Part shown: piece after piece, positions 2,731 through 23,160 of the stretch | Position numbering within the stretch: position 1 is the stretch's first letter | Layout of the letters: the number at the start of each line of letters is the position of its first letter | From: Luteimonas panaciterrae | GTDB lineage: Bacteria > Pseudomonadota > Gammaproteobacteria > Xanthomonadales > Xanthomonadaceae | Length of the DNA stretch: 64,000 nt | Reading direction: 5' to 3' | NCBI RefSeq assembly: GCF_020511115.1 | Contig: NZ_JAJAVH010000008.1 | Span: 124,001-188,000, forward strand | The notes under the pieces: model-generated | Database searches by the model: none | Told to the model about the DNA's origin: nothing | What the model saw: only the letters and a program-made list of their open reading frames with translations | Translations under genes and position numbers: made by a program

Positions 2731-3524
2731 TCAGCCATGCCGACGCAGACGCCGCGCCGCCAGCAGCAGGAAGACGACGGTGAAGCCGAGCAATGCCAGG
2801 ACATGCGGCCAGAGCGCGGCGGATTCGAAACCGACGGCCGCCTGCGACAGCTTATTGAGGTGATAACTCGGCCACAGCGGCGCCAGTTGCTGCAGGAACC
2901 GTGGCAGCACCGACAACGGAAACCAAAGACCGGAGAGGAAGGCCATCGGGAGATAGAGCAGATTCGCCATCGCCGGCGCGCCCTGGCCACTGACCAGGCA
3001 ACCGAGCAGCAGCCCCATCGCGCAGAATGGCAGCGTGCCCAGCATGCCGGTGGCGAGCAGGTGCGCGATCTGCAGCGGTTGGAGCCGCACATCCGCGGCG
3101 AACACCGCCAGCACCACCAATAAACCGACGATCAGCCCTGCCACCAGCATCGCCATGATCATCTTGCCGAGCAGATACGCCGCCGGCGGCATCGGTAGCG
3201 CACGCTTGAGCATGAGCAAGCCGTTGTCGCGTTCCAGGGCCAGGGCGATGCCGAAGCCGAACAGGCCAGGCGCCATCACCCCGAAAGTCGCGTAGGCAGC
3301 CAGCAGGTAGCGTGGCGCATCAGGATTGCCATGCCTGCCGCCGAGGACGATGCCGAACATCGTGTAGAACACCAGCGGAAACAGCAGCGTCGGCAACATG
3401 AAACCGGGGCTGCGCAAGTAGCGAAGACATTCGCTGCGCATTTCCTGCAGGTAGGCCTGCAGCACGCGGCTGGCCGGCATCGATGCTTTCGCGGGCGTGG
3501 CGGCGGTCCAGTCGAACGTTTGCA

Positions 3525-3525
<1 letters not shown>
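2731..3525 (-). CDS. ABC-2 type transporter permease
   Basis: A 264-residue integral membrane protein with six predicted membrane spans (for example near 45-64, 73-96 and 122-143, and a final one at about 240-258), matching the ABC-2 permease family that exports drugs, lipids or polysaccharides. Its ATG shares one base with the stop of the upstream ATPase gene (TGATG), which points to translational coupling and a joint complex. The two downstream genes encode a DesK/DesR pair, an arrangement known for transporters that answer cell-envelope or lipid stress. The substrate cannot be read from the sequence. Confidence 0.9.
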
Positions 3526-4451
<926 letters not shown>

Positions 4452-4661
4452 CGTGGTTTCAAAGTGGAAGTCGTGGCGCCAAATTAGGCCGCCGCCCTCT
4501 TTGGAGGCAGTTGCGGCGATCAGCCATCGCGCATGACAAACGTCAGGTGAATAGATGGCCAACCTTGCGTAAGCTTGTCCGGCATCACACCGAGGGGGAA
4601 CTCGGTTGGCGACCGCTGATGCATACCGCCACAATCCGTCTTTTCCCGTTTCCGGATCACG

Positions 4662-5921
4662 ATGAATACTTCCGCCGACCTGCTGAAGGAACTCCGCATC
4701 GACCGCAAGGCACCCCCGCCGCCGCCTTCACGGCGCGGCCTGTGGACGACCTTGATCGTGATCGCCGTCATCGCGTTGCTTGCCGTCGGTGGCTGGCTGT
4801 TCTTGACACGTGACAAGGGCGTCGAGGTACGCACCGCGACAGCCGTGGCGATCGGCAGCGGCGGAGCATCGGCATCCGTGCTCGACGCCACCGGCTATGT
4901 GGTGGCGCGGCGCACGGCGACGGTTTCGGCCAAGATCACCGGCAAGGTGCGCGAGGTATTGATCGAGGAGGGCCAGCGCGTCGAGGAAGGCCAGGTGATG
5001 GCTACGCTCGATCCGGTCAGTGAAACCGCTGATCGCACGCTGGCGTCGGCACAGCTGTCGGCGTCGCAAAGCGAGATCGGGCGCGTGCAGGCGCAGTTGA
5101 AGGAGGCCGAAGTCAACGCTTCTCGGCTGTCGACGCTGGTGAGCCAGCAACTGGTGTCGAAGTCGCAATACGACCAGGCCGTCGCACAGCGCGACTCCCT
5201 GCGCGCGCAGCTGGTGACCGCGCAACGCAACGCCAAGGTCGCGTCGGACCAGCTCGCGATCGCAGACATCAATCTCGACTACACCGTGGTGCGTGCGCCG
5301 TTCGCCGGCATCGTCACCGCCAAGGCGGCGCAGCCGGGCGAAATCGTGTCGCCGCTATCCGCCGGCGGCGGGTTCACGCGCACCGGTATCGGCACCATCG
5401 TCGACATGGATTCGCTGGAGGTAGAAGTTGACGTCGGCGAGGCGTTCATCGGTCGCGTGCAGCCGAAGATGCCGGTGGAGGCCACACTCAACGCCTATCC
5501 GGACTGGAAGATTCCCGCCGAGGTGATCGCGATCATCCCCGCCGCCGACCGCGGCAAGGCCACCGTGAAGGTGCGCATCGCATTGAAGGTGAAGGACCCG
5601 CGCATCGTCCCGGACATGGGCGTCAACGTCAGCTTCCTCGAAAACGAAAAGCCCGCCACCGCGTCGCCGCTGCAGACACGCGGCGTGCGCGTGTCCGCCA
5701 CCGCCATCACGCAGCGCGAGGGCATCAACGTCGCCTTCGCGTTAAAAGGCGGCGACGCTGGCACGGTGGAGCAGCGCGAACTCAAGCTCGGCCGCACGAT
5801 CGGCGACGACCGGCAGGTACTATCGGGCCTGTCGGCCGGCGACGAGGTCATCCTGTCCCCGCCCGCTGAGCTCAAGGACGGAAGCAAGGTCCGGGTGGCC
5901 GGCGCGGACGCCGAAAAATAA
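4662..5921 (+). CDS. MacA/HlyD-family periplasmic adaptor subunit
   Basis: A 419-residue membrane-fusion (adaptor) protein. A single N-terminal membrane anchor spans about residues 29-48; then come a biotinyl/lipoyl-like half-motif (TVSAKITGKVREVLIEEGQRVEEGQVMATLD), a coiled-coil hairpin at about 125-195 and the second lipoyl half plus beta-barrel (DYTVVRAPFAGIVTAKAAQPGEIV). The fold links an inner-membrane pump to an outer-membrane channel. Here the following genes encode an MacB/LolD-type ATPase and two FtsX-like permeases, so it most likely serves that ABC exporter. No outer-membrane factor is encoded nearby, so TolC would come from elsewhere. It is divergent from the ABC-2/DesKR operon. 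Confidence 0.92.
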   Translation: MNTSADLLKELRIDRKAPPPPPSRRGLWTTLIVIAVIALLAVGGWLFLTRDKGVEVRTATAVAIGSGGASASVLDATGYVVARRTATVSAKITGKVREVLIEEGQRVEEGQVMATLDPVSETADRTLASAQLSASQSEIGRVQAQLKEAEVNASRLSTLVSQQLVSKSQYDQAVAQRDSLRAQLVTAQRNAKVASDQLAIADINLDYTVVRAPFAGIVTAKAAQPGEIVSPLSAGGGFTRTGIGTIVDMDSLEVEVDVGEAFIGRVQPKMPVEATLNAYPDWKIPAEVIAIIPAADRGKATVKVRIALKVKDPRIVPDMGVNVSFLENEKPATASPLQTRGVRVSATAITQREGINVAFALKGGDAGTVEQRELKLGRTIGDDRQVLSGLSAGDEVILSPPAELKDGSKVRVAGADAEK

Positions 5922-6013
5922 TTTCGAATCGGGGCTGCGGGATGTCGATTTCCCGTCCTCTCGATCGTCGTAGTGGTTGTGAAGGCCCGGCGGACGCCGG
6001 GAGCGGCATCGCT

Positions 6014-6071
6014 GGGGCTACGTCCTCCAGCCGAGCAATCAACAGCAGCCCCCTGCCGGGGACGTAGCCCC
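6014..6071. repeat. Inverted repeat with 12-bp arms between adaptor and ATPase genes
   Basis: The arms ggggctacgtcc (6014-6025) and ggacgtagcccc (6060-6071) are perfect complements separated by 34 bp. The right arm runs into a second small palindrome (GTAGCCCCGGCCTAC, 6064-6078). The whole structure fills most of the 172-bp gap before the ATPase gene, whose Shine-Dalgarno GAGGTAG follows at once. It looks like a REP/BIME-type element and could stabilise or attenuate the operon mRNA. Confidence 0.6.
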
Positions 6072-6093
6072 GGCCTACATTTGAGGTAGAGCG

Positions 6094-6786
<693 letters not shown>

Positions 6787-6839
6787 GACATTGACTCCCT
6801 CCTCTGCAACGCATGGGAAGGAGAACCTCGGAGGATTCC

Positions 6840-8006
6840 ATGAAGTATCTCCATCTGGTCTGGGCGGAACTGTTCCGGCGCAAGACGCGCACGTTCCTCA
6901 CCCTTTTCTCGATCGTGGCAGCGTTCCTGCTGTTCGGGCTGCTCGACGGCGTGCGCGAAAGCTTCGCAGAGGCCGGGCAGAGCGCGAACGGCGCCAAGCG
7001 CCTGCAGACCGGCGCCAAGCTGTCCTTCATCCAGCCGCTGCCGATGGCGCTCAACGATCGCATCGCGCGCGTCGACGGCGTCAAGGGCGTGGCCTATGCG
7101 AACTGGTTCGGCGGCGCCTATCGGGATCCGCATAACCAAATCTTCAGCTTCGCCGTATCGCCGAACTACCTCGACCAGTTCCCGGAAATCGACGTCGCGC
7201 CGGCCGAACGCAAGGCCTTCGACAGCACCCGCACCGGCATCCTGGTGGGCGAGGATCTGATGCGGCGCTTCGGCTGGAAGGTCGGACAGAAGGTGCCGCT
7301 GCAATCGACCATCTTTCCCAATAGCGACGGCAGCAAGAACTGGAGCTTCGACATCGTCGGCGTGATGCGGGCGAAGGACAAGAAGACCGGCGGCTGGTAC
7401 GGCCAGATGCTGCTGATGCAGTGGAAGTACTTCGACGAGTCCACGCCCTACAACCGTGGCCAGACCGGCTGGTACGTGATCAGCCTCAACGACGCCAACC
7501 AGGCCGACCGCGTCGCCAGGGCGATCGACGCGCTGTCGGCCAACTCCGATCATGAAACCAAGACCCAGACCGAAGCGGCCGCCGCGGCTTCGTGGATGAA
7601 GCAGATGGCCGACATCGGCCTGATCGTCAGCTCGATCATGGGCGCGGTGTTCTTCACCCTGCTGCTGCTCACCGGCAACACCATGGCGCAGGCGGTGCGC
7701 GAGCGGATCCCGGAACTCGCGGTGCTGAAGACGATCGGCTTCTCCAATCACAGCGTATTGTTCATGGTGTTGGCCGAATCGGTATTGATGGTGCTGATCG
7801 GCGGCGTGCTCGGCGTGACGCTGTCGGTGGTGCTGGGACCGATCGTCGGCGGCCTCAGCAACGGTGCCGTGCAAATTCCGCCGGTGGGCTGGAGAAGTTG
7901 GTTGCTCGGCATCGGTCTGATGCTGGGGATCGGATTGCTGGTCGGCGCATTGCCTGCGCTGCGGGCGATGCGATTGAACATCGTCGATGCGCTGGCCGGA
8001 CGCTGA
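6840..8006 (+). CDS. FtsX/MacB-like ABC transporter permease (first of two)
   Basis: A 388-residue permease with one N-terminal membrane span (about 15-35), a long periplasmic MacB_PCD-like domain, and three C-terminal spans (GAVFFTLLLLTGNTMAQAV, FMVLAESVLMVLIGGVLGV and SWLLGIGLMLGIGLLVGAL). Conserved FtsX features include RIPELAVLKTIGFS and the C-terminal PALRAMRLNIVDALAG. The ATG at 6840 is preferred over an in-frame codon at 6813 because GGAGG-like bases (6830-6834) stand just before it. It pairs with the next gene, 12 bp downstream, to form a heterodimeric permease. Confidence 0.93.
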   Translation: MKYLHLVWAELFRRKTRTFLTLFSIVAAFLLFGLLDGVRESFAEAGQSANGAKRLQTGAKLSFIQPLPMALNDRIARVDGVKGVAYANWFGGAYRDPHNQIFSFAVSPNYLDQFPEIDVAPAERKAFDSTRTGILVGEDLMRRFGWKVGQKVPLQSTIFPNSDGSKNWSFDIVGVMRAKDKKTGGWYGQMLLMQWKYFDESTPYNRGQTGWYVISLNDANQADRVARAIDALSANSDHETKTQTEAAAAASWMKQMADIGLIVSSIMGAVFFTLLLLTGNTMAQAVRERIPELAVLKTIGFSNHSVLFMVLAESVLMVLIGGVLGVTLSVVLGPIVGGLSNGAVQIPPVGWRSWLLGIGLMLGIGLLVGALPALRAMRLNIVDALAGR

Positions 8007-8018
8007 GGAGAAATTGAC

Positions 8019-9332
8019 ATGAAGACATTTCTGCGCGTTTTTCTTCTCATCTTGACCGTACTGGTCAGCATCGCGGCCTGGTTGATGCTGCCGTGGTACA
8101 TCCTGCTCGGCATCGCGGTCCTGTTCGTGCTGTGGCTGCTGTTCACCCGGCGCGGCCAACAGACCGGATCTGTCACCCAAGTTGGCCTCAGTACGCTGAA
8201 GCAGCGCATCGCCGCTTCCTTGGTGGTGGTAATCGGCATCGCCGGCGTAGTCGGCGTATTGGTGGCGCTGCTGGCGATGGCCGAAGGTTATCGGGAAACG
8301 TTGCGCAAGAGCGGCAGCGAGGACAGCGCCATCGTGATGCGCGGTGCTTCCGCGGCCGAGGTGATGTCCACGCTCAGCCGCGACAGCATCGTCGCCATCA
8401 ACGACGCGCCCGGCGTCGCCCGTGACGCGCAAGGCCGCGCATTGATCTCGCCCGAGCTGATCGTAGCCGCCAATCTGCCGTTGAAGGACGGCAGCGGTGA
8501 TGATGGCAGCGTGCAGGTACGCGGCGTGGGCGATCAGGCCTGGGCTGTGCGTCCATCCGTGAAGATCGTTTCCGGCCGCAAATTCGAAACCGGCCGCCGC
8601 GAGCTGGTGGCCGGCAGCGGCGCGCAGCGTCAGTTCGCGGGACTCGAACCTGGCCATGTAATCAAGCTCGGCAGCCAGGACTGGACCGTGGTCGGCATCT
8701 TCCATTCCGGTGATGCCATGGATTCGGAAATATGGGGCGATGCCGAAGTCGTCGCGTCCACCTATAACCGTGGCAGCTCGCGCAGCTCGGTCACCGCCAA
8801 GCTGAGCTCCGCCGCCGCGTTCAAAGGGTTCAAGGCTGCGCTCGCCAACGATCCGCGCCTGGATGTGGACACAACCACCACTCTCGAATATTTCAATAAG
8901 CAATCCGAACAGATGACCACCGTCTTGCGCGCGATCGGCATCGTGGTCGGCGTGATCATGGCGCTTGGCGCGGTGTTCGGCGCGCTCAATACCATGTACG
9001 CCAGCGTCGCCGCACGCCAGCGGGAAATCGGCACCTTGCGCGCAATCGGCTTCCGCGGCGTGCCAGTGGTGGTGGCAGTGATGCTGGAAACGCTGTTGCT
9101 GGCGTTGCTCGGCGGCGTGATTGGCGGCCTGCTGGCCTGGCTCATCTTCAACGGCTACACCGCCTCCACCATCGCCGGCGGCGTCGGCCAGCTGACCTTC
9201 CAGTTCAAGGTCTCACCACAACTGCTGTGGACCGGTGTGAAGTGGGCCATGGCGATCGGTTTCATCGGCGGCCTGTTCCCCGCCGTGCGCGCGGCGCACC
9301 TGCCGGTCACCGAAGCATTGCGCAGCGCGTGA
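8019..9332 (+). CDS. FtsX/MacB-like ABC transporter permease (second of two)
   Basis: A 437-residue permease of the same family. It differs from its partner by an extra hydrophobic N-terminal stretch (about residues 5-45, probably two spans) before the usual first FtsX span (IAASLVVVIGIAGVVGVLVAL), then a periplasmic domain and three C-terminal spans ending in FPAVRAAHLPVTEALRSA. The motif AARQREIGTLRAIGFRG is the family hallmark. The ATG has a GAGGAG ribosome-binding site in the preceding 12-bp spacer. It ends the four-gene exporter operon and is followed at once by a strong stem-loop. Confidence 0.93.
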   Translation: MKTFLRVFLLILTVLVSIAAWLMLPWYILLGIAVLFVLWLLFTRRGQQTGSVTQVGLSTLKQRIAASLVVVIGIAGVVGVLVALLAMAEGYRETLRKSGSEDSAIVMRGASAAEVMSTLSRDSIVAINDAPGVARDAQGRALISPELIVAANLPLKDGSGDDGSVQVRGVGDQAWAVRPSVKIVSGRKFETGRRELVAGSGAQRQFAGLEPGHVIKLGSQDWTVVGIFHSGDAMDSEIWGDAEVVASTYNRGSSRSSVTAKLSSAAAFKGFKAALANDPRLDVDTTTTLEYFNKQSEQMTTVLRAIGIVVGVIMALGAVFGALNTMYASVAARQREIGTLRAIGFRGVPVVVAVMLETLLLALLGGVIGGLLAWLIFNGYTASTIAGGVGQLTFQFKVSPQLLWTGVKWAMAIGFIGGLFPAVRAAHLPVTEALRSA

Positions 9333-9755: not shown

Positions 9756-10370
9756 CTACGACGGCTGATCCGCATCGAGCCAGCCTCGGGCGATGGCGCT
9801 TTCGACATCGGCTTCGGTGTCGAGATCGAACTCCAGATCCGGCGCACGCAGCGTCCACACCGCGTCGTCGGGCAGCAATCGCAGGCGTCCGCCGAGACCG
9901 TGATCCGCCTGCAACCGCGCGGCCTCGGCCAGCAGTGACGGCGTGACCACGGCCGGAACTCCGCGCTTGTCCGCGTGCGATGTCGCCGCGCAACCCGATG
10001 ATGCGCTGGCAGCACCTGTCAGCAATTGCTGGAGGTGTGTGATTTCGAGTGCCGATTGATCGCAGGCGAGGATCAACGTCGGCGCGCGATGTCCGACCAA
10101 TGCGGCCGCGGCGGCGCGCAAACTACTGGCCATACCGCTTTGCCAATCCTCATTGATGACGATCTCGCAGGCGATGTCCGCCAGCGCGAGCTCGCAAGCA
10201 TCACGATGTGCGCCGAGCACCACCAGCAGGCGTTGCGGATTCGTCCCGGATGCCAGACGCGCGGCGCGATGCAACAGCGTTTCGTCCGCGCGCCGCAGCA
10301 ATTGCTTCGGGCGCCCCAGGCGACGGCTGCCACCCGCCGCCAACACGATGGCGGCATGCGATGCGGTCAA
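9756..10370 (-). CDS. MocA-like molybdenum cofactor nucleotidyltransferase
   Basis: A 204-residue nucleotidyltransferase (NTP_transf_3/MobA-like). The NTP-binding N-terminus LAAGGSRRLGRPKQLL and later LACDQ and DLDTEADVESA motifs match MocA, which attaches CMP to molybdopterin and so makes the MCD cofactor used by XDH/isoquinoline oxidoreductase-type enzymes. Context supports this: it follows an XdhC-like gene and lies 2.2 kb from two Mo-hydroxylase cassettes. The start is TTG at 10368-10370 and overlaps the XdhC stop (TTGA), indicating translational coupling; no in-frame ATG exists before the NTP-binding motif. Confidence 0.85.
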   Translation of the reverse strand: MTASHAAIVLAAGGSRRLGRPKQLLRRADETLLHRAARLASGTNPQRLLVVLGAHRDACELALADIACEIVINEDWQSGMASSLRAAAAALVGHRAPTLILACDQSALEITHLQQLLTGAASASSGCAATSHADKRGVPAVVTPSLLAEAARLQADHGLGGRLRLLPDDAVWTLRAPDLEFDLDTEADVESAIARGWLDADQPS

Positions 10371-11392
10371 GCCACCGCCTCGGCGGGACGAGGATCAGGG
10401 TTGGAGGTGAGTTCTTCGCCAGACGCACGCCCCGGTTCCACCTCATGCAGATACGCCTGCAGTTGCGCGGCGATGCTCAGCGCGATCGCTTGTGGCCCCT
10501 GCCCGCCCAGCTTGAGGCCAATCGGCGAACGCAGGCGTGGCGTCAACACGGCGCGATGCGATGCCGGCAGCACGCGGAACAGATCCTCTCGGCGGCGCAC
10601 CGGACCAAGCAGACCGACGAAGGGAATTGCATTCGCCGCCAACGCATCGAGCGCTTCGCGGTCGAGTTCGAAGTTGTGATGCATGACCAGCGCGGCATCG
10701 AACACCTGGTCCGCACGCACGGCATCCGCCGGCGTGGCATCGAGATGCCGATCCGCGAAGCGCGCCTGTCCGCGCCAGCGTTCGCGACGCTCGGCCAGCG
10801 TGGTCTTCCAGCCCATCTCGCGCAGCAGGGGTAACAACATCGGCGTTTCCGGGCCGGCACCGAGCACCAACACCTCGGGTGGGGCATCGATGCGCAGCGA
10901 CCACGCCGTTGTCGTCGATCCCCACGCCACCGTCGTCGTCGCGATGCGCCAATCGCGCACCGTTCCCGCTGCGATGCATGCAACGGCGCCGTCGCGATCG
11001 ATCTTCAAGTCCAGCGGCGCGCGCCCGCGCTGCCATGCGGCGAACGGCGCTTCCGCATCCGGCAGCTGCCGCAGCGGCAGCAACGCCAGACGCAACAGAC
11101 CACGGCACCCGACCGCCGAACCGGACAGCATGTCCTCGTCCTCGCGCGTGTCGATTTCCAGCCAATGCAGTTGCCCTTCCCGTGCGGGCTCGCTGGCGAT
11201 GCGCTCGATCGCCGGTTCAAGACAACCCCCGCTGAGCCAACCGACTTGCCCGTCGCTGGCGCCGAACAGCGCCATCGCGCCCGCGCGCGCGTACGTGGAG
11301 CCTTCGGTCTCCAGCACGACCACCAGCGTCGCCGCATCGCCGCGCTGCAAGGCCTGCAGCGCCGCTTCCATCACCATTCGATGTTCAGACAT
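10367..11392 (-). CDS. XdhC/CoxI-family molybdoenzyme maturation factor
   Basis: A 341-residue protein with an XdhC_CoxI domain at the N-terminus (VVVLETEGSTYARAGAMALF and GWLSGGCLEP, with the conserved GGCLE) and a C-terminal Rossmann-like domain (LVLGAGPETPMLLPLLREMGW...LTPRLRSPIGLKLGG). The family binds and sulfurates or inserts the molybdenum cofactor into hydroxylases. The ATG at 11390-11392 (MSEHRMV) is chosen; a longer frame upstream is Arg/Cys-rich and unlike the family. It is cotranscribed with the MocA-like gene and presumably matures the two Mo subunits encoded at 13015 and 16762. Confidence 0.9.
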   Translation of the reverse strand: MSEHRMVMEAALQALQRGDAATLVVVLETEGSTYARAGAMALFGASDGQVGWLSGGCLEPAIERIASEPAREGQLHWLEIDTREDEDMLSGSAVGCRGLLRLALLPLRQLPDAEAPFAAWQRGRAPLDLKIDRDGAVACIAAGTVRDWRIATTTVAWGSTTTAWSLRIDAPPEVLVLGAGPETPMLLPLLREMGWKTTLAERRERWRGQARFADRHLDATPADAVRADQVFDAALVMHHNFELDREALDALAANAIPFVGLLGPVRRREDLFRVLPASHRAVLTPRLRSPIGLKLGGQGPQAIALSIAAQLQAYLHEVEPGRASGEELTSNPDPRPAEAVA

Positions 11393-11486
11393 GAGGCTTG
11401 CGCAATTCCGACGCGGACGGGGCTGAGGCAACGATAGCGCCGGCCAGCCTCGAATGCCTATCCCCCGGTATCTCCGTCCGCAAAAC

Positions 11487-12401
11487 TCAGCGTCGCATGC
11501 GCCGGAACTGGTTCGGCGCGACGCCTTCATGCCGCTTGAACGCGGTGGTGAAGTGGCTGTGGCTGGCGAAGCCGGTGGCCATGGCGATGGCGGTGATGCT
11601 CTGTCGCGTCCCGGCGAGCAGCGCCCTGGCGTGTGCCAGTCGCCGTTGGATCACGTATTGCGCGGGCGTGGTGCCGAAGGTGCCGCGGAACGCAACCAAG
11701 AGCCGGTGCACGCTCATCCCGGCCAGCGAGGCCAGCGTTTCCAGAACGATGCGTTTCGACAGATTCGCTTCGATGTAGTCCTCCAGCCACTGCCGTGTCT
11801 GCGGAGATAATTCGGCCGAATCGCCCTGCGCCGATGCATCGGCGGCCGCGCCGCCGTACTTGTCGAGCAGATGCAGCCCGATCATCTGGCTCAGCGAGGC
11901 ACTCATCATCCTCGACAGATCATCGTCCCGGCCTACCTGTTCGGCGAGCCGCTGCGCGGCGAAGTAGAGGAATTCGTCGCGATGCATCAGCCGCGGCGGG
12001 ATGTCGTGGAAATCGCGCGCGCGCCCGGTGAGTTCCTCGAAATACTCCGGCGCGATGCGGATCTCGGCGCAACGGTAACCACCGCCGCGAGCTTGGCTCG
12101 CGTACTTGCGGCCGGCGGGAATCAGCAACACATCGCCGACCGCCGTCGGCATGCGTCGCGCTTCGTGCCCTTCGATCTCGGCCACCAGATCGTGCATCTC
12201 GCCTTCGAAATGCACGATCAGCGTGTGTTCCTCGCCGTGGATCGCCCAATCGGTCGGCGAAAGAATCTGCTCCGAAAGCAGCGACAGTTCGAGCCCAGGC
12301 CAGGCAGCGAGCGTTTCGGTGCGGGGATTGATGTCTGCGGTCTCCACGGAAACATCGTCCGGAGAATTTGCAAGCATCGTGGACATTTTGGAAGCCCTCA
12401 T
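11487..12401 (-). CDS. AraC-family transcriptional regulator
   Basis: A 304-residue regulator with a cupin-like N-terminal sensor region (about 30-130; GDVLLIPAGRKYAS) and a C-terminal AraC double helix-turn-helix at about 205-302 (LETLASLAGMSVHRLLVAFRG...ITAIAMATGFASHSHFTTAFKRHEGVAPNQFRR). It is divergent from the first Mo-hydroxylase cassette with 139 bp between the starts, and an 8-bp-arm palindrome lies in that gap. It is therefore the obvious candidate activator of the cassette, perhaps sensing the substrate. It also precedes the XdhC/MocA genes on the same strand (94 bp gap). Effector unknown. Confidence 0.92.
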   Translation of the reverse strand: MRASKMSTMLANSPDDVSVETADINPRTETLAAWPGLELSLLSEQILSPTDWAIHGEEHTLIVHFEGEMHDLVAEIEGHEARRMPTAVGDVLLIPAGRKYASQARGGGYRCAEIRIAPEYFEELTGRARDFHDIPPRLMHRDEFLYFAAQRLAEQVGRDDDLSRMMSASLSQMIGLHLLDKYGGAAADASAQGDSAELSPQTRQWLEDYIEANLSKRIVLETLASLAGMSVHRLLVAFRGTFGTTPAQYVIQRRLAHARALLAGTRQSITAIAMATGFASHSHFTTAFKRHEGVAPNQFRRMRR

Positions 12402-12540: not shown

Positions 12541-13002
12541 ATGGCCATCACGTTGAACATCAACGGCAAGGAACACAGCGTCGACGCCCCCGAAGACAAG
12601 CCCCTGCTCTGGGTGCTGCGCGACGATCTGCATATGACCGGCACCAAGTTCGGCTGCGGCGCGGCGTTGTGCGGCGCCTGCACCGTGCTGGTTGACGGCA
12701 GCCCGCGCCGCGCCTGCGTGATGCCGGCCTCCGCCGCCGCCGGCAAGCAGATCACCACTGTTGAAGGCATCGGCGCCACGCCGGTCGGCAAGAAGGTGCA
12801 GGACACCTGGGTGGCATTGAACGTGCCGCAATGCGGCTACTGCCAGTCCGGCCAGGTGGTGGCGGCCACGGCGCTACTCACCCTCAACCCCAAGCCGAAC
12901 GATCGCGACATCGACGAGGCGATGTCGGGAAACATCTGCCGCTGCGGCATGTATCCACGCATCCGCCGTGCGATCCATGAGATCGCCGACAACGCAGCCT
13001 GA
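12541..13002 (+). CDS. [2Fe-2S] subunit of Mo hydroxylase (isoquinoline 1-oxidoreductase alpha-like), copy 1
   Basis: A 153-residue small subunit of the xanthine-oxidase/isoquinoline 1-oxidoreductase family. The plant-ferredoxin-type cluster is bound by Cys39, Cys44, Cys47 and Cys59 and the second, helical cluster by Cys98, Cys101, Cys133 and Cys135 (CGYCQSGQ...CRCG). The subunit passes electrons from the Mo site to an outside acceptor. It lacks a signal peptide and would travel with its twin-arginine partner. Shine-Dalgarno GGAGAAAG lies just upstream. It opens a three-gene operon (12 bp to the Mo subunit, then a cytochrome) and has a close paralogue at 16131. Confidence 0.95.
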   Translation: MAITLNINGKEHSVDAPEDKPLLWVLRDDLHMTGTKFGCGAALCGACTVLVDGSPRRACVMPASAAAGKQITTVEGIGATPVGKKVQDTWVALNVPQCGYCQSGQVVAATALLTLNPKPNDRDIDEAMSGNICRCGMYPRIRRAIHEIADNAA

Positions 13003-13014
13003 GGAGGTAGCGCC

Positions 13015-15228
13015 ATGAAAGACGATACCAAGACACCTCTCGACGCACCCGGCACCTCGCGCCGCCGCTTCCTCAAGGCGACCGCCGTGGCCGGTGGTGG
13101 CCTGCTGATCGGCTTCCACCTCGTGCCGAGCGGACGCGCAGCGATGGCGGCGGAAACTGCCGGCGGAAAACCACTGCAACCGAACGCCTTCGTGCGCATC
13201 ACTCCCGACGATCAGGTTACCGTCATCGTCGGCCATTCCGAACTCGGCCAGGGCACGTTGACGGCGATCTCGATGATGGTGGCCGAGGAACTCGACGCCG
13301 ACTGGTCGCGCGTGCGCTACGAGCAGGCGCCGGCCGATCCGGCCTACAACCAGCCGGTGTTCCACACCCAGATCACCGGCGGCAGCATGTCGACCGGTTC
13401 GGAATACATGCAGCAGCGTCAGGCCGGCGCCGCCGCGCGTGCGTTGCTGGTCGCCGCCGCCGCCAAGCGCTGGGGCGTGGATGCCGCGAGTCTGCGTACC
13501 GAAGCCGGCAAGGTCCATGACGATGCCGGCAAGCGCAGCGCGCGCTACGGCGAACTGGTCGACGAAGCAGCGGCGCTGCCCGCGCCCGCGCTCGACACAC
13601 TCAAGCTCAAGGACCGCAAGGATTTCAAGATCATCGGCAAGCCGCGGCAGCGGATGGATGCGGCGATCAAGGTCGACGGCAGCGCCCAGTTCGGCCTCGA
13701 CGTCTATCTGCCGGGCATGTTGACCGCGATGCGCGTGCGGCCGCCGGTATTTGGCGGCAAGCTGCGAAGCTTCGACGCCAAGCAGGCGAAAGCGGTGCCC
13801 GGTGTGGTCGATGTGCTGCAGATTCCCACCGGCATCGCCATCATCGCCAAGGATTACTGGTCGGCCAAGAAAGGACGCGACGCTCTCGTCGTCGATTGGG
13901 ACCCGACCGCCGGCGAGCGCCGCTCCACCGCGCAGATGCGCGCCGACTACGCCAAGCTGATGGATGCGCCGGGCGCGCTGGTGGCGCGCAACGATGGCGA
14001 CATCGCCGCCGCGCAAAAGAACGCCAAGCAGACCCTGACGGCCGAATTCCCGTTCCCGTTCCTCGCGCACGTGCCGATGGAGCCGTACAACGCCGTGGTC
14101 GACCTGAAGGATGACGGCTGCGAGGTCTGGATCGGCACGCAGTGGCAGAGCGGCGACCAGTTGGCCATCGCGCAGGTGCTCGGGCTGAAGCCGGAGCAGG
14201 TGAAGCTCCACACCATGCTGGTCGGCGGCGGCTTCGGCCGGCGCACCAATCCGCCGATCGCGGCGGAAGCGGCGGAAGTGGCCAAGGCCGCGCGCGCGGC
14301 CGGCATCCAAGCCCCGGTCAAACTGATGTGGACGCGCGAGGACGACGTTCACGGCGGCTTCTATCGCCCGTTCGTGCATGCCCGCCTCAGCGCGACGCTG
14401 GACGAACACGGCCGGTTGTCGTCGTGGAGCGACCGTCACGCCGCGCAGGCGTTCCTGCCGGGCACGCCGTTCGAGGCGGCGATGAAGAACGGCATCGATC
14501 CGTCGAACAGCGAAGGCGCGGAGGACATGCCCTACGCCGTGCCGAACATGCACTTCAGCATCCACCAGCCCAAGTCCGACATTCCGCAGTGGTGGTGGCG
14601 TTCGGTCGGCCACTCCTTCAACGGCTTCATCGTCGAAACCTTCATCGACGAGCTGGCGCACGCCGCCGGCAAGGATCCTTATCAGTTTCGACGCGACCAT
14701 CTCAAGGACGACCCGAAAAACACGCGCCTGCTCGGCGTGCTCGACGTCGTCACCAGCGCCGCGGGCTGGGACAAACCCTTGCCCAAGGGCGTGCATCGCG
14801 GTATCGCCGCGCATGCTTCCTACGGTTCCTTCGCCGGCCAGGTCATCGAGGTGAGCGTCGATGCCGACAAGCGGCTCACCGTGCACCGGGTGGTGGCTGT
14901 GATCGATTGCGGCGTGGTGATCAATCCCGATCTGGTCAGGGCGCAGGTGGAATCGGCCGTGATCTTCGGCCTGTCTGGCGCGCTGTTCCAGGAAATCACG
15001 CTGAAGGACGGTGTCGTCGAGCAGAACAACTACGACGATTACCCGGTGCTGCGCATGTACCAGACGCCGAGGATCGATGTGCATCTGGTCAACAGCGACG
15101 CGCCGCCCTCCGGTTGCGGGGAACCCGGCACCGAATGTGTCGCGCCGGCGCTCGCCAACGCGATCTTCGCTGCCACTGGCCAGCGCCTGCGCACCCTGCC
15201 GCTCAAACACCACCTGCAGATCGCCTGA
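13015..15228 (+). CDS. Mo-cofactor-binding subunit (isoquinoline 1-oxidoreductase beta-like), copy 1
   Basis: A 737-residue large subunit of the IorB type. A twin-arginine leader (SRRRFLKATAVAGGGLLIGF, residues about 15-34) suggests export in folded form to the periplasm. Cofactor motifs include VGGGFGRRTNPP (around residue 400) and the catalytic-glutamate loop CGEPGTECVAPALANAI near the C-terminus. The family hydroxylates N-heterocycles or oxidises aldehydes using MCD. No FAD subunit is encoded, consistent with cytochrome-linked members, and a di-haem cytochrome gene follows after 10 bp. Start ATG has GAGGAGG upstream. Substrate not deducible; about half-identical by eye to the second copy at 16762. 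Confidence 0.94.
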   Translation: MKDDTKTPLDAPGTSRRRFLKATAVAGGGLLIGFHLVPSGRAAMAAETAGGKPLQPNAFVRITPDDQVTVIVGHSELGQGTLTAISMMVAEELDADWSRVRYEQAPADPAYNQPVFHTQITGGSMSTGSEYMQQRQAGAAARALLVAAAAKRWGVDAASLRTEAGKVHDDAGKRSARYGELVDEAAALPAPALDTLKLKDRKDFKIIGKPRQRMDAAIKVDGSAQFGLDVYLPGMLTAMRVRPPVFGGKLRSFDAKQAKAVPGVVDVLQIPTGIAIIAKDYWSAKKGRDALVVDWDPTAGERRSTAQMRADYAKLMDAPGALVARNDGDIAAAQKNAKQTLTAEFPFPFLAHVPMEPYNAVVDLKDDGCEVWIGTQWQSGDQLAIAQVLGLKPEQVKLHTMLVGGGFGRRTNPPIAAEAAEVAKAARAAGIQAPVKLMWTREDDVHGGFYRPFVHARLSATLDEHGRLSSWSDRHAAQAFLPGTPFEAAMKNGIDPSNSEGAEDMPYAVPNMHFSIHQPKSDIPQWWWRSVGHSFNGFIVETFIDELAHAAGKDPYQFRRDHLKDDPKNTRLLGVLDVVTSAAGWDKPLPKGVHRGIAAHASYGSFAGQVIEVSVDADKRLTVHRVVAVIDCGVVINPDLVRAQVESAVIFGLSGALFQEITLKDGVVEQNNYDDYPVLRMYQTPRIDVHLVNSDAPPSGCGEPGTECVAPALANAIFAATGQRLRTLPLKHHLQIA

Positions 15229-15238
15229 GGAGGACGCC

Positions 15239-15886
15239 ATGAACGTACGCAATCGCCCGCTGCGCATCGTCGCCCTGCTCGGGATCGTCTCCGCCGTCGC
15301 CGCTGCAATGGCCATCGCTGCGGAAAACGCCCCCAAGCCTGCCAAGTCCGTCAGCGATCCTGCGCTGTTCGATCCGATCGCCAGCGTGGTCATGCATCCG
15401 CGCTGCATGAACTGCCATCAGGTCGACTTCCCGCGCCAGACCGACGCCGGCATCCGCCATACCCAACTGGTGGTGCGCGGCACCGGCGGCACCAGCGCGC
15501 ACGATGGTGGCCACGGCGCGCCGACCCTGCAATGCCAGACCTGCCACCAGGCCAGCAACACCGCCGACGGTCGCGTGCCCGGCACGCCGAACTGGCAGCT
15601 GGCGCCGGCATCGATGAAATGGGAAGGGCTGTCGAAGGCGCAGATCTGCGAACAGCTCAAGGATCCCGAGCGCAACGGCCATCGCACCACCGCCAAGTCC
15701 GTGGTCGAGCACATGGGCGCCTACGGCAGCCACACCGATCCGCTGGTATTGTGGGCGTGGAATCCCGGCGCCCATCGCAGCACCCCACCGATCAGCCACG
15801 CCGAGTTCGTCAAGGCGCTGGAAGCCTGGGCCGAAGCCGGCATGCCCTGCCCGTCAACGACCGACGCGCGCACCGCGGCGCGTTGA
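15239..15886 (+). CDS. Di-haem c-type cytochrome-like protein, copy 1
   Basis: A 215-residue exported protein with an N-terminal signal (residues 1-28, cleaved near AIAAEN) and two haem c motifs, CMNCH at 56-60 and CQTCH at 99-103. The rest is mostly Trp/His/Pro-rich without other known domains (NWQLAPASMKWEGLSKAQIC). In IorAB-type systems a c-type cytochrome takes the electrons from the 2Fe-2S subunit; the operon position (10 bp after the Mo subunit) supports that job in the periplasm. The ATG at 15239 follows a GAGGAGG site; the longer open frame upstream overlaps the Mo subunit and is not coding. Confidence 0.88.
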   Translation: MNVRNRPLRIVALLGIVSAVAAAMAIAAENAPKPAKSVSDPALFDPIASVVMHPRCMNCHQVDFPRQTDAGIRHTQLVVRGTGGTSAHDGGHGAPTLQCQTCHQASNTADGRVPGTPNWQLAPASMKWEGLSKAQICEQLKDPERNGHRTTAKSVVEHMGAYGSHTDPLVLWAWNPGAHRSTPPISHAEFVKALEAWAEAGMPCPSTTDARTAAR

Positions 15887-15895
15887 TGCGCTGCG

Positions 15896-15933
15896 GCATC
15901 GCGGCCGACCGCATGACCGGCCGCGATGCTTTG
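15896..15933 (+). terminator. Candidate terminator after first Mo-hydroxylase cassette
   Basis: gcatcgcggccg (15896-15907) pairs perfectly with 15918-15929, giving a 12-bp GC-rich stem with a 10-nt loop followed by TTTG, only 9 bp after the cytochrome stop. The T-tract is short. It would separate the two cassettes into different transcription units. Confidence 0.55.
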
Positions 15934-15961
15934 CAGGATCGTGCCGGATTCTTGCAGGATC
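15931..15961. repeat. Direct repeat ttgcaggatc, 21-bp period
   Basis: The 10-mer ttgcaggatc occurs at 15931-15940 and 15952-15961, exactly 21 bp (two helical turns) apart, in the 244-bp gap before the second cassette. This spacing is typical of tandem binding sites for AraC-like activators. No matching copy was noticed upstream of the first cassette. Confidence 0.4.
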
Positions 15962-16130
15962 AGGCTATCCCGGCGTGAGCGCGCGATAGTGTCGCATGGC
16001 AATCTCCTTACATTCGGCGGCGGTGTCCCGCCCCCATTCGCGCACATTCCCTGGTGATCCCCCGATCACACCAGTCGGATGCCAGCGGGGGTAACATCCC
16101 GTCACCCCAGCCGTCGCCAGGGAGACGACC

Positions 16131-16583
16131 ATGAAACTGCACGTCAACGGGACCGAGCGCGAAGTCGACGCGCCGGCCGACATGCCGCTGCTTTGGGTGC
16201 TGCGCGATCTGCTCGGCATGACCGGCACCAAGTTCGGTTGCGGCATCGCGCAATGCGGCGCCTGCACCGTCCACATCGACGGCGCGCCGCTGCGTGCCTG
16301 CGTCACGCCGGTCTCGGCCGTGGAAGGCAAGAAGATCACCACCATCGAAGGATTGTCGGCGGACGGCACCCATCCGGTGCAGAAGGCCTGGGCCGAACTC
16401 GACGTGGTGCAGTGCGGTTACTGCCAGTCCGGCCAGATCATGTCGGCCGCCGCGCTGTTGGCACAGGTGCCCAAGCCGACCGATGCCGACATCGACCAGG
16501 CACTGTCCGGCAACCTCTGCCGCTGCGGCACCTACCAGCGCATCCGCGCCGCGGTGCATCGCGCGGCCGAACTGAACACCTGA
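16131..16583 (+). CDS. [2Fe-2S] subunit of Mo hydroxylase, copy 2
   Basis: A 150-residue paralogue of the protein at 12541, with the same two cluster motifs ([15 protein letters not shown] plus later Cys for cluster one, CGYCQSGQ and CRCGTYQR for cluster two) and the same FGCG spacing. It begins a second cassette of identical gene order. Shine-Dalgarno GGAGACG stands before the ATG. The Mo-subunit gene follows after 178 bp, unlike the 12 bp in copy 1, and that gap holds a repeat element, which suggests an insertion within the operon. Confidence 0.95.
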
Positions 16584-16595
16584 TTCCATCCAAAG

Positions 16596-16621
16596 CCTTT
16601 TCCCTGCACGCAGGAGAAAGG
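16596..16621. repeat. CCCTCTCCCGC-type palindrome inside second cassette
   Basis: ccttttccctgc (16596-16607) and gcaggagaaagg (16610-16621) form an imperfect 12-bp stem. A further half-element (caagcgggagaaggga) lies at about 16732-16747, so the 178-bp gap between the 2Fe-2S and Mo genes is largely repeat-derived. Related hairpins are at 47879 and 63641. Confidence 0.5.
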
Positions 16622-16761
16622 TTGGAGTGAGGGGCGCGGCCCGACATCCTCGAACACCGCACACCCTGACTCCGTCTCCCTCATCCGGCCTACGGGCCAC
16701 CCCTCAACCGCTTGTGGCGACTTCGATCCGGCAAGCGGGAGAAGGGAATCTGGAGGTTCTC

Positions 16762-18945
16762 ATGAACGCAGTCCTCGATCCGGCCCGTCGCAACTTCCTC
16801 AAGACCAGCGCGCTTGTCGGCGGCGGCCTGGTGATCGGCTTCGTGGTCCCCGGCGCGAAGCGCTTCGCCCTGGCGCAGGAACCGGCCGCGGCCGCAACCG
16901 CCTTCGCGCCCAACGCCTTCCTGCGCATCGGCACCGACGACAGCGTGACCGTGCTGCTGGCCCACTCGGAAATGGGCCAGGGCATCTGGACCACGCTGCC
17001 GATGCTGATCGCCGAGGAGCTCGACGCAGACTGGTCGAAGATCAAGGTCGAGCACGCGCCCGCTGGCGATCCCTACAAGAGCACGTTGTTCGGCATCCAG
17101 ATGACTGGCGGTTCCTCCACGACCTACAGCGAATTCGACCGCTACCGCCAGGCCGGCGCCACCGCACGCGCCCTGCTCGTGCAGGCCGCCGCCGCGCGCC
17201 TGAAAGTACCGGCCGACCAGATCCGCACCGAGAACGGCCACGTCATCGCCGGCGATCAACGCCTGCGCTACGGCGAACTCACCGACGAAGCGTCAAAGCT
17301 AACGGCACCCGATCCGAAATCGCTGAAGCTCAAGGAACCGAAGGACTGGAAGATCATCGGCAAGCCGACCAACCGCCTCGACACGCCGGAAAAGATCACC
17401 GGCCGTGCCCAGTTCGGCATGGACGTGCAGTTCGAAGGCCTGCGCACCGCCGTGGTGGCGCGCTCGCCGGTGTTCGGCGGCAAGGTGAAGTCCTTCGATG
17501 CCACCGCGGCGAAAGCGGTGCCTGGCGTGCGCGACGTGGTGCAGGTGCCGAGCGGCGTGGCCGTGATCGCCGATCACTACTGGGCCGCCAAGCTCGGCCG
17601 CGATGCGCTGAAGGTCGAATGGGACCTCGGCCCGCACGCGACGCTCGACACCGCCGCCCTGCGCGATCAGTTCACCAAGCTGGCGACCACACTCGGCGCG
17701 GTCGCCGCGCAGGCGGGCGATGCCGTCGCCGCAATGGCGAACGCGAAGAAAACCGTGGAAGTCGAATATGCGGTGCCCTATCTCGCGCATGCGCCGATGG
17801 AGCCGCTCAACTGCACGGTGAAGATCGACAGCGACAAGTGCGAAATCTGGACCGGTACCCAATTCCAGACCATCGATCAGCAAGTCGGCGCCAGGATCAC
17901 CGGTTTGAAGCCGGAACAGGTCTTCGTCCATACCGCCTTCCTCGGCGGTGGCTTCGGCCGTCGCGCCACGCCGGCCTCCGATTTCGTCACCGAAGCGGTC
18001 GAAGTGGCGAAAGCCGCGAAGGCGCCGGTGAAGACGGTCTGGTCGCGCGAGGACGACATCCGCGGCGGCTACTACCGCCCCGCCTACGTGCAGCATGCCA
18101 AGGTCGGCCTCGACGCCGACGGCAAGCCGATCGCATGGCTGCAGACCCTGGTCGGGCAGTCGATCATCGCCGGCACGCCGTTCGCGTCGGCGATGATCAA
18201 GAACGGCGTCGATGCCACTTCCGTGGAAGGTGTCGCCGATTCGCCATACCTGGCGGGCACGCCGGCGCATCGCGTCGACCTGCACTCGCCGGACACCGGC
18301 ATCCCGGTGCTGTGGTGGCGTTCGGTCGGCCACAGCTACAACGGCTTCGTGATGGAGAGCCTGGTCGACGAACTCGCGCACGCCGCCGGCAAGGACCCGC
18401 TCGAATACCGCCGCACGCTGCTCAAGGACCATCCACGCCATCTCGCCGCGCTGAACCTCGCCGCCGAGAAATTCGGCTGGGACAAGCCGCTGGCGAAAGG
18501 CCGCGGCAAGGGCATCGCCGTGCACGAATCCTTCGGCAGCTACGTCGCGCAGGCGGCGGAAGTCTCGGTGGAAGACGGCACAATCAAGGTACATCGCGTG
18601 GTCTGCGCGATCGACTGCGGCCTCGCCGTGAACCCCAGTGCCGTGGAAGCGCAGATGCAATCCGGCATCGCCTTCGGCCTCGGTGCCGCCCTGCACTCCA
18701 AGCTCACCTTCAAGGAAGGTCGCGTGCAGGAATCCAACTACCACGACTACACCGTCCTGCGCATGCACGAGATGCCGGTGGTGGAAGTCCACATCGTGCC
18801 GAGCACGGAAAAAATGGGGGGCGTCGGCGAACCCGGCACGCCGCCGATCGCACCGGCGGTGGCGAACGCGGTGTTCGCGCTCACCGGACAGCGACTGCGC
18901 GAACTGCCATTGCAGCTTGCAGCCACGCCCGCGACGAAAGCTTGA
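16762..18945 (+). CDS. Mo-cofactor-binding subunit (isoquinoline 1-oxidoreductase beta-like), copy 2
   Basis: A 727-residue paralogue of the subunit at 13015, with a twin-arginine leader ([20 protein letters not shown], residues 8-27), the cofactor loop [12 protein letters not shown] and the catalytic-glutamate loop [17 protein letters not shown]. The start is set by the GGAGG at 16752-16756 before ATG 16762; an upstream open frame is not coding. Compared with copy 1 the glutamate loop lacks the Cys (CGEPGTEC versus VGEPGTPP), so the two enzymes may differ in substrate. It is followed after 14 bp by its own cytochrome gene. Confidence 0.94.
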
Positions 18946-18959
18946 AGAGGAGAACGACG

Positions 18960-19532
18960 ATGAAGCGTTCCGCCCTACTGTGTCTCGCCGTGCTCGCCCT
19001 CGCCGCCTGCGGCCAACGCGTCAGCCCGGAACAGAAGGCCAAGGCGATCGAAGCCTTCGCCACCGTCGAGAAAGTGTTCCAGCATCCGCGCTGCAGCAAC
19101 TGCCACATCCCCGGTGACCAGCCGCTGCAGTTCGATGCCCAGACCCCGCACGCCATGAGCGTCGTCCGCGGCCCCGAAGGCAAGGGCGCGCCCGGCCTGC
19201 CTTGCAGCACCTGCCACGGCGTGCAGAACTCCCCCGCCAGCTACGGCCCGCATGCCCCGCCCGGCGCACCGAACTGGCACCTGCCCCCGCCCGATCACAA
19301 GATGGCCTGGATCGGACTGCCGGCGAAGGAACTGTGCGAGATGATCCAGGACAAGTCGAAGAACGGCGACCGCGACTTCGCCGCGCTGCTCAAGCATGTC
19401 AGCGAGGACAAGCTGGTGTTGTGGGGGTGGCAGCCGGGTGGCGAACGCAAGCCGGTGTCGGTGCCGCATGATCAGTTTGTGGCGGCGTTCAAGACTTGGG
19501 CTGATGCTGGTGGGCCTTGTCCGGAAGGTTGA
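18960..19532 (+). CDS. Di-haem c-type cytochrome-like lipoprotein, copy 2
   Basis: A 190-residue protein with a lipoprotein signal (lipobox LAAC, Cys17) and two haem c motifs, CSNCH at 45-49 and CSTCH at 82-86. It is a clear relative of the protein at 15239 (shared [54 protein letters not shown]) but is anchored by lipid rather than secreted. It probably accepts electrons from the second Mo hydroxylase. ATG 18960 follows a GAGGAG site. The longer frame upstream lies inside the Mo-subunit gene and is a shadow. Confidence 0.87.
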
Positions 19533-22314: not shown

Positions 22315-23160
22315 TCAGGCCGCATTGCCGCGGCCGGCATGCTCGCGCTGCAGCAGGCGGTCCTTCAGCGGCAAGCCCCAGCGATAACCGCCGAGCGAAC
22401 CGTCGCCGCGAATCACGCGATGACAGGGCACGATCACCGCGATGCGGTTGTGCGCGCAGGCACTGGCGACCGCGCGCGTGGCGCGCGGCTCGCCCAGCCC
22501 CGCCGCGACTTCGGCATAGCTGCGCGTCTGTCCGGCCGGGATCTTCATCAGTGCATCCCAAACGCGCTTCTGGAACGCCGTGCCGAGCAGATCGACCGGC
22601 ACCTGCGTGCGTTTGCCTGCGAGTGCATCCGCCACCGCGCGCACGCGCGGGGCCAGGAATTCGTCGCGTCCGGCATCGACGCGCTCAAGGTTCGCGTTCG
22701 GGAATTCGGTGCGCAGTTTCGCTTCGAGTTCGGCATTCTCGCCCGAAGAGGCCACGACCTCGACCATGCAGATTCCGCGCTCGGTGGCGGCGACGAGCGC
22801 ACGGCCCAGCGCGGTGTCGATGACGCTCCAGCGGATCGCTTCACCGGCGCCGCCGGCGCGATAGCGCGCGGGCGTCATGCCGAGCTTGACCGCGCCGCCC
22901 TCGTACACGCGCGAGGGCGAGCCGTAGCCGGCGTCGTAAAGCGCGCCACTGATGTCGTCGCCTTCGCGCAAGGCCGCCTTCAGCAGTTCGAGTTTGCGCT
23001 GCGCGCTGTATTCGGCCGGGCTGAGGCCGAACTGCGCGCGGAAACGCCGCTGCAGATGCGAAGCGCTCAGGCCTACCGCGCCGGCCAGTTCGGCGAGCGA
23101 GAGATCGTCGCCTTCGAGCAGTTTGCGGGCGCGTTCTAGTTTGTCGTTGATTTTGTCCAC
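22315..23160 (-). CDS. Ada-like AraC/methylated-DNA cysteine methyltransferase
   Basis: A 281-residue fusion of an AraC-type helix-turn-helix (about 10-105; LSLAELAGAVGLSASHLQRRFRAQFGLSPAEY) and an O6-methylguanine-DNA methyltransferase domain (about 120-275) with active-site Cys near 246 in VPCHRVIR. It repairs O6-alkylguanine by self-alkylation and may regulate its own gene. The N-terminal zinc domain of full-length Ada, which takes methyl groups from phosphotriesters, is absent, so the classic Ada methyl switch is missing. The start is GTG 23158-23160; no suitable ATG is in frame. It is convergent with the Lrp gene. Confidence 0.9.
   Translation of the reverse strand: MDKINDKLERARKLLEGDDLSLAELAGAVGLSASHLQRRFRAQFGLSPAEYSAQRKLELLKAALREGDDISGALYDAGYGSPSRVYEGGAVKLGMTPARYRAGGAGEAIRWSVIDTALGRALVAATERGICMVEVVASSGENAELEAKLRTEFPNANLERVDAGRDEFLAPRVRAVADALAGKRTQVPVDLLGTAFQKRVWDALMKIPAGQTRSYAEVAAGLGEPRATRAVASACAHNRIAVIVPCHRVIRGDGSLGGYRWGLPLKDRLLQREHAGRGNAA

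Follow-up and report, generated by a model that had tools for sequence, protein, structure and literature searches.

In this study, we examined a tandem pair of molybdenum hydroxylase cassettes in a 64,000-nucleotide stretch of Luteimonas panaciterrae DNA (positions 124,001 to 188,000 of the forward strand of contig NZ_JAJAVH010000008.1, assembly GCF_020511115.1), to which we refer in its full length as the window. Each cassette encodes an IorA-like 2Fe-2S subunit, an IorB-like molybdenum (Mo) subunit with a twin-arginine translocation (Tat) signal and a small c-type cytochrome with two CxxCH motifs. All six genes, listed below, are intact and follow this order both in copy 1 (12541-15886) and in copy 2 (16131-19532), as an original prediction made from the DNA letters had described.

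Genes of the two cassettes

12541-13002, + strand: copy 1 2Fe-2S subunit, IorA-like, 153 aa; PF00111 and PF01799 above cut-off; 8 Cys; 62% identity with copy 2
13015-15228, + strand: copy 1 Mo subunit (Mo1), IorB-like, 737 aa; PF02738, PF20256 and TIGR01409 above cut-off; Tat signal SRRRFLK; motif CGEPGTEC
15239-15886, + strand: copy 1 di-haem c-type cytochrome (Cyt1), 215 aa; two CxxCH; Sec-type signal without lipobox (by eye)
16131-16583, + strand: copy 2 2Fe-2S subunit, IorA-like, 150 aa; PF00111 and PF01799 above cut-off; 8 Cys
16762-18945, + strand: copy 2 Mo subunit (Mo2), IorB-like, 727 aa; PF02738 and PF20256 above cut-off; Tat signal ARRNFLK; motif VGEPGTPP
18960-19532, + strand: copy 2 di-haem c-type cytochrome (Cyt2), 190 aa; two CxxCH; lipoprotein signal with lipobox LAAC (by eye)

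The motifs of the two Mo subunits are as first read, and the signals agree with the earlier distinction between a secreted Cyt1 and a lipid-anchored Cyt2. The Mo2 gene starts with the ATG at 16762; a GTG upstream at 16627 is a possible alternative. Between the two copies the Mo subunits are 50% and the cytochromes 40% identical. Both 2Fe-2S subunits contain Fer2 and Fer2_2 domains and exactly eight cysteines, which by sequence are enough for two [2Fe-2S] clusters, and both Mo subunits contain the Pfam domains MoCoBD_1 and MoCoBD_2. The Tat signals stay under the cut-off of the Pfam model and exceed that of NCBIfam TIGR01409 (21.1 bits for Mo1 and 18.5 for Mo2 vs 16.7). Judged by these domains and by the catalytic glutamate in the GE motif, both cassettes belong to the xanthine oxidase family of molybdenum hydroxylases. 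In agreement with the original prediction, no domain of a flavin adenine dinucleotide (FAD) subunit was found among the 19 proteins scanned in and around the cassettes (4662-25571), and this absence, combined with the predicted Tat signal on the Mo subunit, identifies both copies as IorAB-type periplasmic dehydrogenases. The subfamily-specific NCBIfam cut-offs were missed by a wide margin for the 2Fe-2S and Mo subunits, and thus these models name no substrate. We also considered whether copy 1 stands out by composition as a foreign island; however its GC content and its GC content at third codon positions (GC3) are those of copy 2, so there is no sign of a recent foreign origin. The search for promoter-like sites (0 found, 1.0 expected) and terminator-like sites (4 found, 5.1 expected) placed none between the cassettes and is uninformative on operon limits.

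Fold, active site and relatives of the Mo subunits

The nearest solved relative of both Mo1 and Mo2 (E=6.2e-88 for Mo2) is 8gy3_C, the large subunit of the membrane-bound aldehyde dehydrogenase of Gluconobacter oxydans, which likewise has a Tat-type N-terminus and a xanthine-oxidase fold. An AlphaFold2 model of Mo1 computed from a 53-row alignment (mean pLDDT 89.5) also has 8gy3_C as its best match in the PDB, over the full length and with a TM score of 0.85 at about 28% identity, while the TM score is about 0.6 for PaoC, quinoline 2-oxidoreductase and xanthine oxidase. The catalytic Glu703 of Mo1 is kept in 52 of the 53 aligned rows, the remaining row having a gap there. In Mo1 this residue is bracketed by a pair of cysteines (C701-G-E703-P-G-T-E-C708), whereas Val, Ile or Leu and Pro are the usual residues at the two flanking positions and a Cys at either of them occurs in Mo1 alone among the 53 rows.

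In the search at the level of the Xanthomonadaceae, the best-scoring relatives of Mo1 were copy-2-type proteins of the same family, with up to 55% identity. Matches at E<=1e-180 were obtained in 45 of 247 family genomes and 13 of 54 genera, its own included, and besides Mo1 itself the listed identities were 47-55%. No relative closer to Mo1 was found in 274 genomes of the class, nor in a pattern-based scan of genome contigs, where the best 80 of 168 matches were at most 52% identical. Copy 1 has no relative above 55% in any of the searches, whereas relatives of copy 2 at 67-88% identity turn up here and there in its family and order, usually with MocA and XdhC genes next to them. On these comparisons, copy 2 is widespread but patchy, and copy 1 appears to be deeply diverged and has so far been seen in this species only.

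The same genome has a third IorB-like Mo gene, with a 2Fe-2S partner (G000:C45:186499-188724; L219:5943-8722). No di-haem cytochrome was found within the 15 kb fetched around it, and it lies near genes for a zinc alcohol dehydrogenase and a flavodoxin-fold protein.

A widespread family of small di-haem cytochromes

Neither Cyt1 nor Cyt2 scored above the cut-off of any Pfam or NCBIfam model. Counting their own genome, Cyt1 has matches in 9 of 61 near relatives (6/36 congeners, 2/24 others of the order) and in 38 of 398 genomes of the phylum, and Cyt2 in 35 of 299 genomes of the order; the family was found in Pseudomonadota and Bacteroidota. A tblastn search with Cyt1 on plasmids gave 49 records (from Rhizobium, Sulfitobacter, Sinorhizobium, Paracoccus and others), and among the 30 of these that were listed, 17 were annotated as 'Isoquinoline 1-oxidoreductase subunit', 5 were without any annotation and 8 had no feature at that place. 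Plasmid cassettes of Rhizobium etli, Methylobacterium, Paracoccus yeei and Azospirillum carry cytochromes of the same family (39-45% identity to Cyt1), and the cytochrome gene lies beside 2Fe-2S and Mo genes in all four records opened. They differ from the window in having a single cassette in each stretch opened and in a gene order that varies (2Fe-2S, cytochrome, Mo in R. etli).

With flanks of 1.5 kb, the cytochrome gene adjoins Mo genes in 29 of the 30 order loci listed (copy 2 of the window being one of them) and in 26 of the 28 phylum loci listed. Among 40 regions of 7-12 kb, hand-picked from the Cyt2 matches in the order and the Cyt1 matches in the phylum and not covering all of these, 36 have Mo as well as 2Fe-2S genes beside the cytochrome gene. 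By this linkage, the role of probable electron acceptor that the original prediction had given to the cytochromes is well supported.

The conservation count was made on 68 rows, that is, on an alignment of 70 less the two most distant (L251, L252). In Cyt1 numbering, both CxxCH motifs, His74 and His158 are present in all 68 rows, Met126 and Cys137 in 61 each and Cys204 in 60, and Cyt1 and Cyt2 have all of these. His74, His158 and Met126 are candidate axial haem ligands, and Cys137 and Cys204 may form a disulfide. The family traits as found here, which are not a published definition, are two CxxCH motifs, a His after the first, WxLxP, a late His and a Cys pair, and both window cytochromes show them. 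A lipobox was detected by a crude pattern in 18 of 21 copy-2-type relatives vs 3 of the 47 other rows; lipid anchoring is thus found mostly in the copy-2 lineage, and the plain signal of Cyt1 is the commoner kind. Cyt1 is in addition set apart by a short insertion, rich in His and Gly, that lies between His74 and the second CxxCH and is missing from Cyt2 and the seven other rows of a separate, smaller alignment.

Another class of Mo subunits, only distantly related, is also followed by a cytochrome of the same di-haem family, the genes being ordered Mo, 2Fe-2S, cytochrome (L225, L230, L233, L256 and L257). The Mo subunit of L225 has 924 aa with MoCoBD_1 and MoCoBD_2 domains; the other four were recognised by a weak BLAST match and similar size. 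In literature searches on isoquinoline 1-oxidoreductase/IorB and related dehydrogenases, we recognised no paper on the di-haem family, which is not proof that there is none. This small cytochrome is a common partner of periplasmic Mo dehydrogenases for which neither a Pfam or NCBIfam model above cut-off nor a solved relative was found, and the locus offers natural secreted and lipid-anchored versions of it side by side for functional tests.

Maturation genes and an AraC-linked slot

Upstream of copy 1 lie two maturation genes and a regulator gene, which border a segment that differs between the window and a congener (locus L205 of genome G025):

9756-10370, - strand: MocA-like molybdenum cofactor cytidylyltransferase (NTP transferase); PF12804 above cut-off
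10367-11530, - strand: XdhC-type molybdenum cofactor (Moco) insertion/sulfuration factor; PF13478 and PF02625
11487-12401, - strand: AraC-type regulator, divergent from copy 1, between the XdhC gene and copy 1; PF12833
12397-16105, no strand: segment in place of the congener's short-chain dehydrogenase/reductase (SDR) and aldehyde dehydrogenase; DNA similarity to L205 stops at 12396 and resumes at 16106

The best NCBIfam model for the MocA-like protein, TIGR03310, reached 83.8 bits and stayed under its cut-off of 186. The MocA and XdhC genes adjoin the cassette in 16 of 21 copy-2-type loci and are divergent from it in 14 of these 16. The original prediction held that the two complete the maturation route. 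They are indeed maturation genes; however moaA is found at G000:C21, outside this locus, which places core Moco synthesis elsewhere and means that XdhC and MocA alone do not complete the route.

The AraC gene, which was absent from the original list of genes, is present at a copy-2-type locus only in the window and in G025 (72% identity) among the 21 loci. Of the congeners, G025 stands nearest at this locus (Mo2 87-88% identical), as judged from the locus itself. In L205, the slot between AraC and copy 2 (about 2845-5440) holds genes for an SDR and an NAD(P)-aldehyde dehydrogenase in place of copy 1, and the approximate breakpoints are the 5' end of the AraC gene and a point 25 bases upstream of the copy-2 2Fe-2S gene. 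The SDR matches NF009385 with 495 bits (cut-off 296). The aldehyde dehydrogenase matches PF00171 with 285 bits, and its best NCBIfam model, benzaldehyde dehydrogenase MdlD, reaches 369 bits, under the cut-off of 550. The window's genome has no close homologue of either protein (best 35% for the SDR and 38% for the aldehyde dehydrogenase).

A search of 198 family genomes gave AraC homologues at E<=1e-40 in 11, one of them the window's own, and in all ten others a divergent SDR gene adjoins the AraC gene (L275-L283 and L205), the SDRs of the nine genomes besides L205 being 55-82% identical to that of L205. Among these 11 genomes, the neighbour of the regulator differs in the window's genome alone. 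We infer from this that copy 1 replaced the SDR and the aldehyde dehydrogenase, with the exchange taking this direction, became a target of the AraC regulator and acts on a related compound. The difference in the slot, with an SDR and an NAD-aldehyde dehydrogenase in one species and a Mo cassette in the other beside related AraC genes, is a compact natural experiment in moving aldehyde oxidation from the cytoplasm to the periplasm, and it gives a hint at the substrate that the family name hides. We consider it one of the points of interest of this locus, the others being the di-haem cytochrome with its wide distribution and the Cys pair, unique and known from a single sequence.

Origin of the two copies

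The original prediction explained the two cassettes by duplication with divergence to two substrates and named clustering apart of the copies as one outcome that would speak against it. In a tree of 125 Mo subunit rows, Mo2 lies deep in a 24-row clade of copy-2 type (SH-aLRT 100) and Mo1 lies outside this clade on a long branch (about 1.0). Matches under 250 bits or 550 residues were dropped from this tree, as were the short duplicates L191-L199, five out of six of the loci L139-L190, the loci before L047 and L081-L109. A second tree of 49 rows, in which 21 of the 24 rows of the copy-2 clade were used, agrees in placing Mo1 outside a 21-row copy-2 clade (SH-aLRT 100); where exactly Mo1 belongs has weak support in either tree. 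Mo1 as the sister of Mo2 and its nearest orthologue (L205) was rejected in the approximately unbiased (AU) test (p=0.00014, lnL 84.9 lower), L205 having been joined to the tested group after the tree was seen. Mo1 as the sister of the whole copy-2 clade was not rejected (AU p=0.114). The cytochrome trees (p=0.083 and 0.44) and the 2Fe-2S trees (p=0.38 and 0.56) do not decide the history. The outcome named against the original proposal is thus seen in part, for the Mo subunit only, where the AU test rejects a recent tandem duplication of copy 2; the trees of the other two subunits are too weak to settle the matter.

This bears on the idea that copy 2 was duplicated locally and that copy 1 then diverged very fast to a second substrate. 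The tandem position, the identical gene order and the uniform GC and GC3 would fit such an event, the cytochrome tree with p=0.083 and the 2Fe-2S tree with p=0.38 do not reject it, and the long branch of Mo1 could mislead a tree in which its placement is weakly supported anyway. However, it conflicts with the rejection of the constrained Mo tree and with the full support for a copy-2 clade that excludes Mo1, and the congener's slot is occupied by different genes, without any remnant of copy 1. We consider this scenario very unlikely, and by the Mo trees copy 2 is unlikely to have been duplicated within this lineage. Copy 1 would instead be either an old paralogue that this species has kept or an acquisition from an unsampled source.

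Two cytochromes of the di-haem family in one locus were seen in none of 182 other loci, some of which overlap and many of which have short flanks. On this count, a double full cassette looks rare, whereas double Mo genes are not rare (for example L200, L178 and L181). At L200:5289-11056 (G987), the 2Fe-2S, Mo and cytochrome genes are followed by a second Mo gene (72% to Mo2) without a 2Fe-2S or cytochrome gene of its own.

Probable substrate and reaction route

Enzymes of this family hydroxylate their substrate at the Mo centre and pass the electrons via two 2Fe-2S clusters to an acceptor. Like the window cassettes, the Gluconobacter aldehyde dehydrogenase has its 2Fe-2S clusters in a small subunit of their own and is not known to include an FAD subunit; however its cytochrome subunit is larger and multi-haem, unlike the small di-haem family described here. 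No 8gy3 chain was among the PDB matches up to E=10 for a 9-row profile of the di-haem family in a comparison of sequence only; since the window cytochromes thus fall outside the 8gy3 cytochrome family by sequence, we regard the cassettes as working like the 8gy3 type and not as members of it. With this type and with PaoEFG, they share a c-type cytochrome encoded together with the enzyme, the di-CxxCH gene being the third in both window cassettes. IorAB of Brevundimonas (Pseudomonas) diminuta 7 has the same IorA/IorB subunit plan and differs in its substrate, which is an N-heterocycle. In this organism, according to PMC6365646, no cytochrome gene lies near iorB, unlike in the window cassettes.

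Published clusters of the same plan point to aldehydes or aldoses. In passages of PMC6365646, clustered iorA-like, iorB-like and cytochrome c genes, whose products are probably periplasmic, are described from mutant fitness as important for the use of deoxyribose in P. simiae (PS417_10890-10880, where Moco genes are needed as well) and of vanillin in P. putida (PP_3621-3623); the likeness to the window lies in the gene plan. PaoEFG of Pseudomonas taiwanensis and P. putida, similar in its make-up, is described as a periplasmic aldehyde oxidoreductase of 2Fe-2S, Mo and cytochrome c subunits (PMC12064950) that oxidises 5-hydroxymethylfurfural (HMF) (PMC12064950, PMC11144800). The passages on PaoEFG in PMC12064950 mention no tandem of two full cassettes. 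Because such clusters act on deoxyribose, vanillin and HMF, aldehydes (or aldoses) are favoured by analogy for both copies, which may differ in substrate as originally proposed. The slot of the congener, with its SDR and NAD(P)-aldehyde dehydrogenase lacking close homologues in the window's genome, likewise favours aldehydes over N-heterocycles.

The explanation that we consider probable as a whole is that the window encodes two periplasmic Mo dehydrogenases of the IorAB/membrane-bound-aldehyde-dehydrogenase type, each with its own di-haem cytochrome, and that aldehydes are their likeliest substrates. This would be an ordinary system of a known kind with one unusual orphan member, copy 1. The Mo subunit would fold in the cytoplasm with the 2Fe-2S subunit, the cofactor being made and inserted with the help of MocA and XdhC, which would serve both copies, and, as the Tat motifs suggest, the assembled enzyme would be exported to the periplasm. 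There the substrate, most likely an aldehyde, would be hydroxylated at the Mo centre, and two electrons would pass through the two 2Fe-2S clusters to the enzyme's own di-haem cytochrome c and then into the respiratory chain. Copy 2, whose cytochrome is lipid-anchored, would be the older form, widespread but patchy in its distribution, and copy 1, in the AraC-linked slot, would respond to the same inducer or act on a related aldehyde by the periplasmic route.

Several observations weigh against this explanation. An aldehyde dehydrogenase gene adjoins just one of the ten AraC-SDR pairs, that of L205, so the hint at aldehydes from the slot comes from one genome, and the characterised IorAB acts on an N-heterocycle. 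Four of the 40 cytochrome regions have no Mo gene (L222, L251, L252 and L255). The relatives of the Mo subunit mostly have no such cytochrome nearby (with 1.5 kb flanks one was seen at 1 of 29 loci, and with flanks of up to 5 kb at 7 of 80), which means that the cytochrome is not obligatory for this type of enzyme. The 9-row profile of the di-haem family gave a best E of 0.48 against the PDB and hence no convincing solved relative, and an AlphaFold2 model of the cytochrome from 9 rows (pLDDT 64.7) had no fold match and was not used.

It might also be argued that both enzymes are N-heterocycle hydroxylases of the isoquinoline, quinoline or nicotinate type. The family name and the annotation 'Isoquinoline 1-oxidoreductase subunit' would agree with this, and both chemistries occur on the xanthine oxidase fold. 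We nevertheless regard it as unlikely, as the nearest structure is by a wide margin an aldehyde dehydrogenase, aldehydes or aldoses are the substrates of the related iorAB-plus-cytochrome clusters, the partner in the slot of the congener is an aldehyde dehydrogenase, and no ring-cleavage or N-heterocycle genes were recognised among ten further window genes scanned (annotation up to 25.6 kb). Another proposal concerns copy 1 only, namely that the Cys pair round Glu703 makes it catalytically non-equivalent, either as a redox-switched enzyme or through changed chemistry. CGEPGTEC is present in 1 of 398 phylum genomes, its own, and among 157 Mo rows it is confined to the window gene and its own duplicate locus, which together with the lone occurrence of Cys in the 53-row alignment makes the pair exceptional. 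However, Mo1 keeps the catalytic glutamate and nearly all other well-conserved residues, departing from them at 8 of the columns conserved at >=85%, and both Cys columns are less conserved and lie outside those 8; as a single sequence, moreover, the pair comes with no evidence from conservation. A special role for it seems to us quite unlikely, and so does a combined proposal. On this view, copy 1 would be a functionally distinct Mo dehydrogenase whose C701 and C708, under the oxidising conditions of the periplasm, form a disulfide lock or work as a thiol switch. The cassette would have arrived whole in the AraC slot in place of the SDR and the NAD(P)-aldehyde dehydrogenase, and one species would thereby have exchanged a cytoplasmic route linked to NAD for one in the periplasm that is linked to a cytochrome, with the regulator unchanged.

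Neighbouring genes

At L255, the di-haem cytochrome gene lies beside genes for MdoG and a glycosyltransferase, as in periplasmic glucan synthesis. Upstream of the cluster in the window (4662-9332) are genes for an HlyD-type membrane fusion protein, an ABC ATPase and two MacB/FtsX-like permeases, an ordinary export set, and at 22315-23160 there is an Ada-like fusion of an AraC-type helix-turn-helix with an O6-methylguanine-DNA methyltransferase domain.

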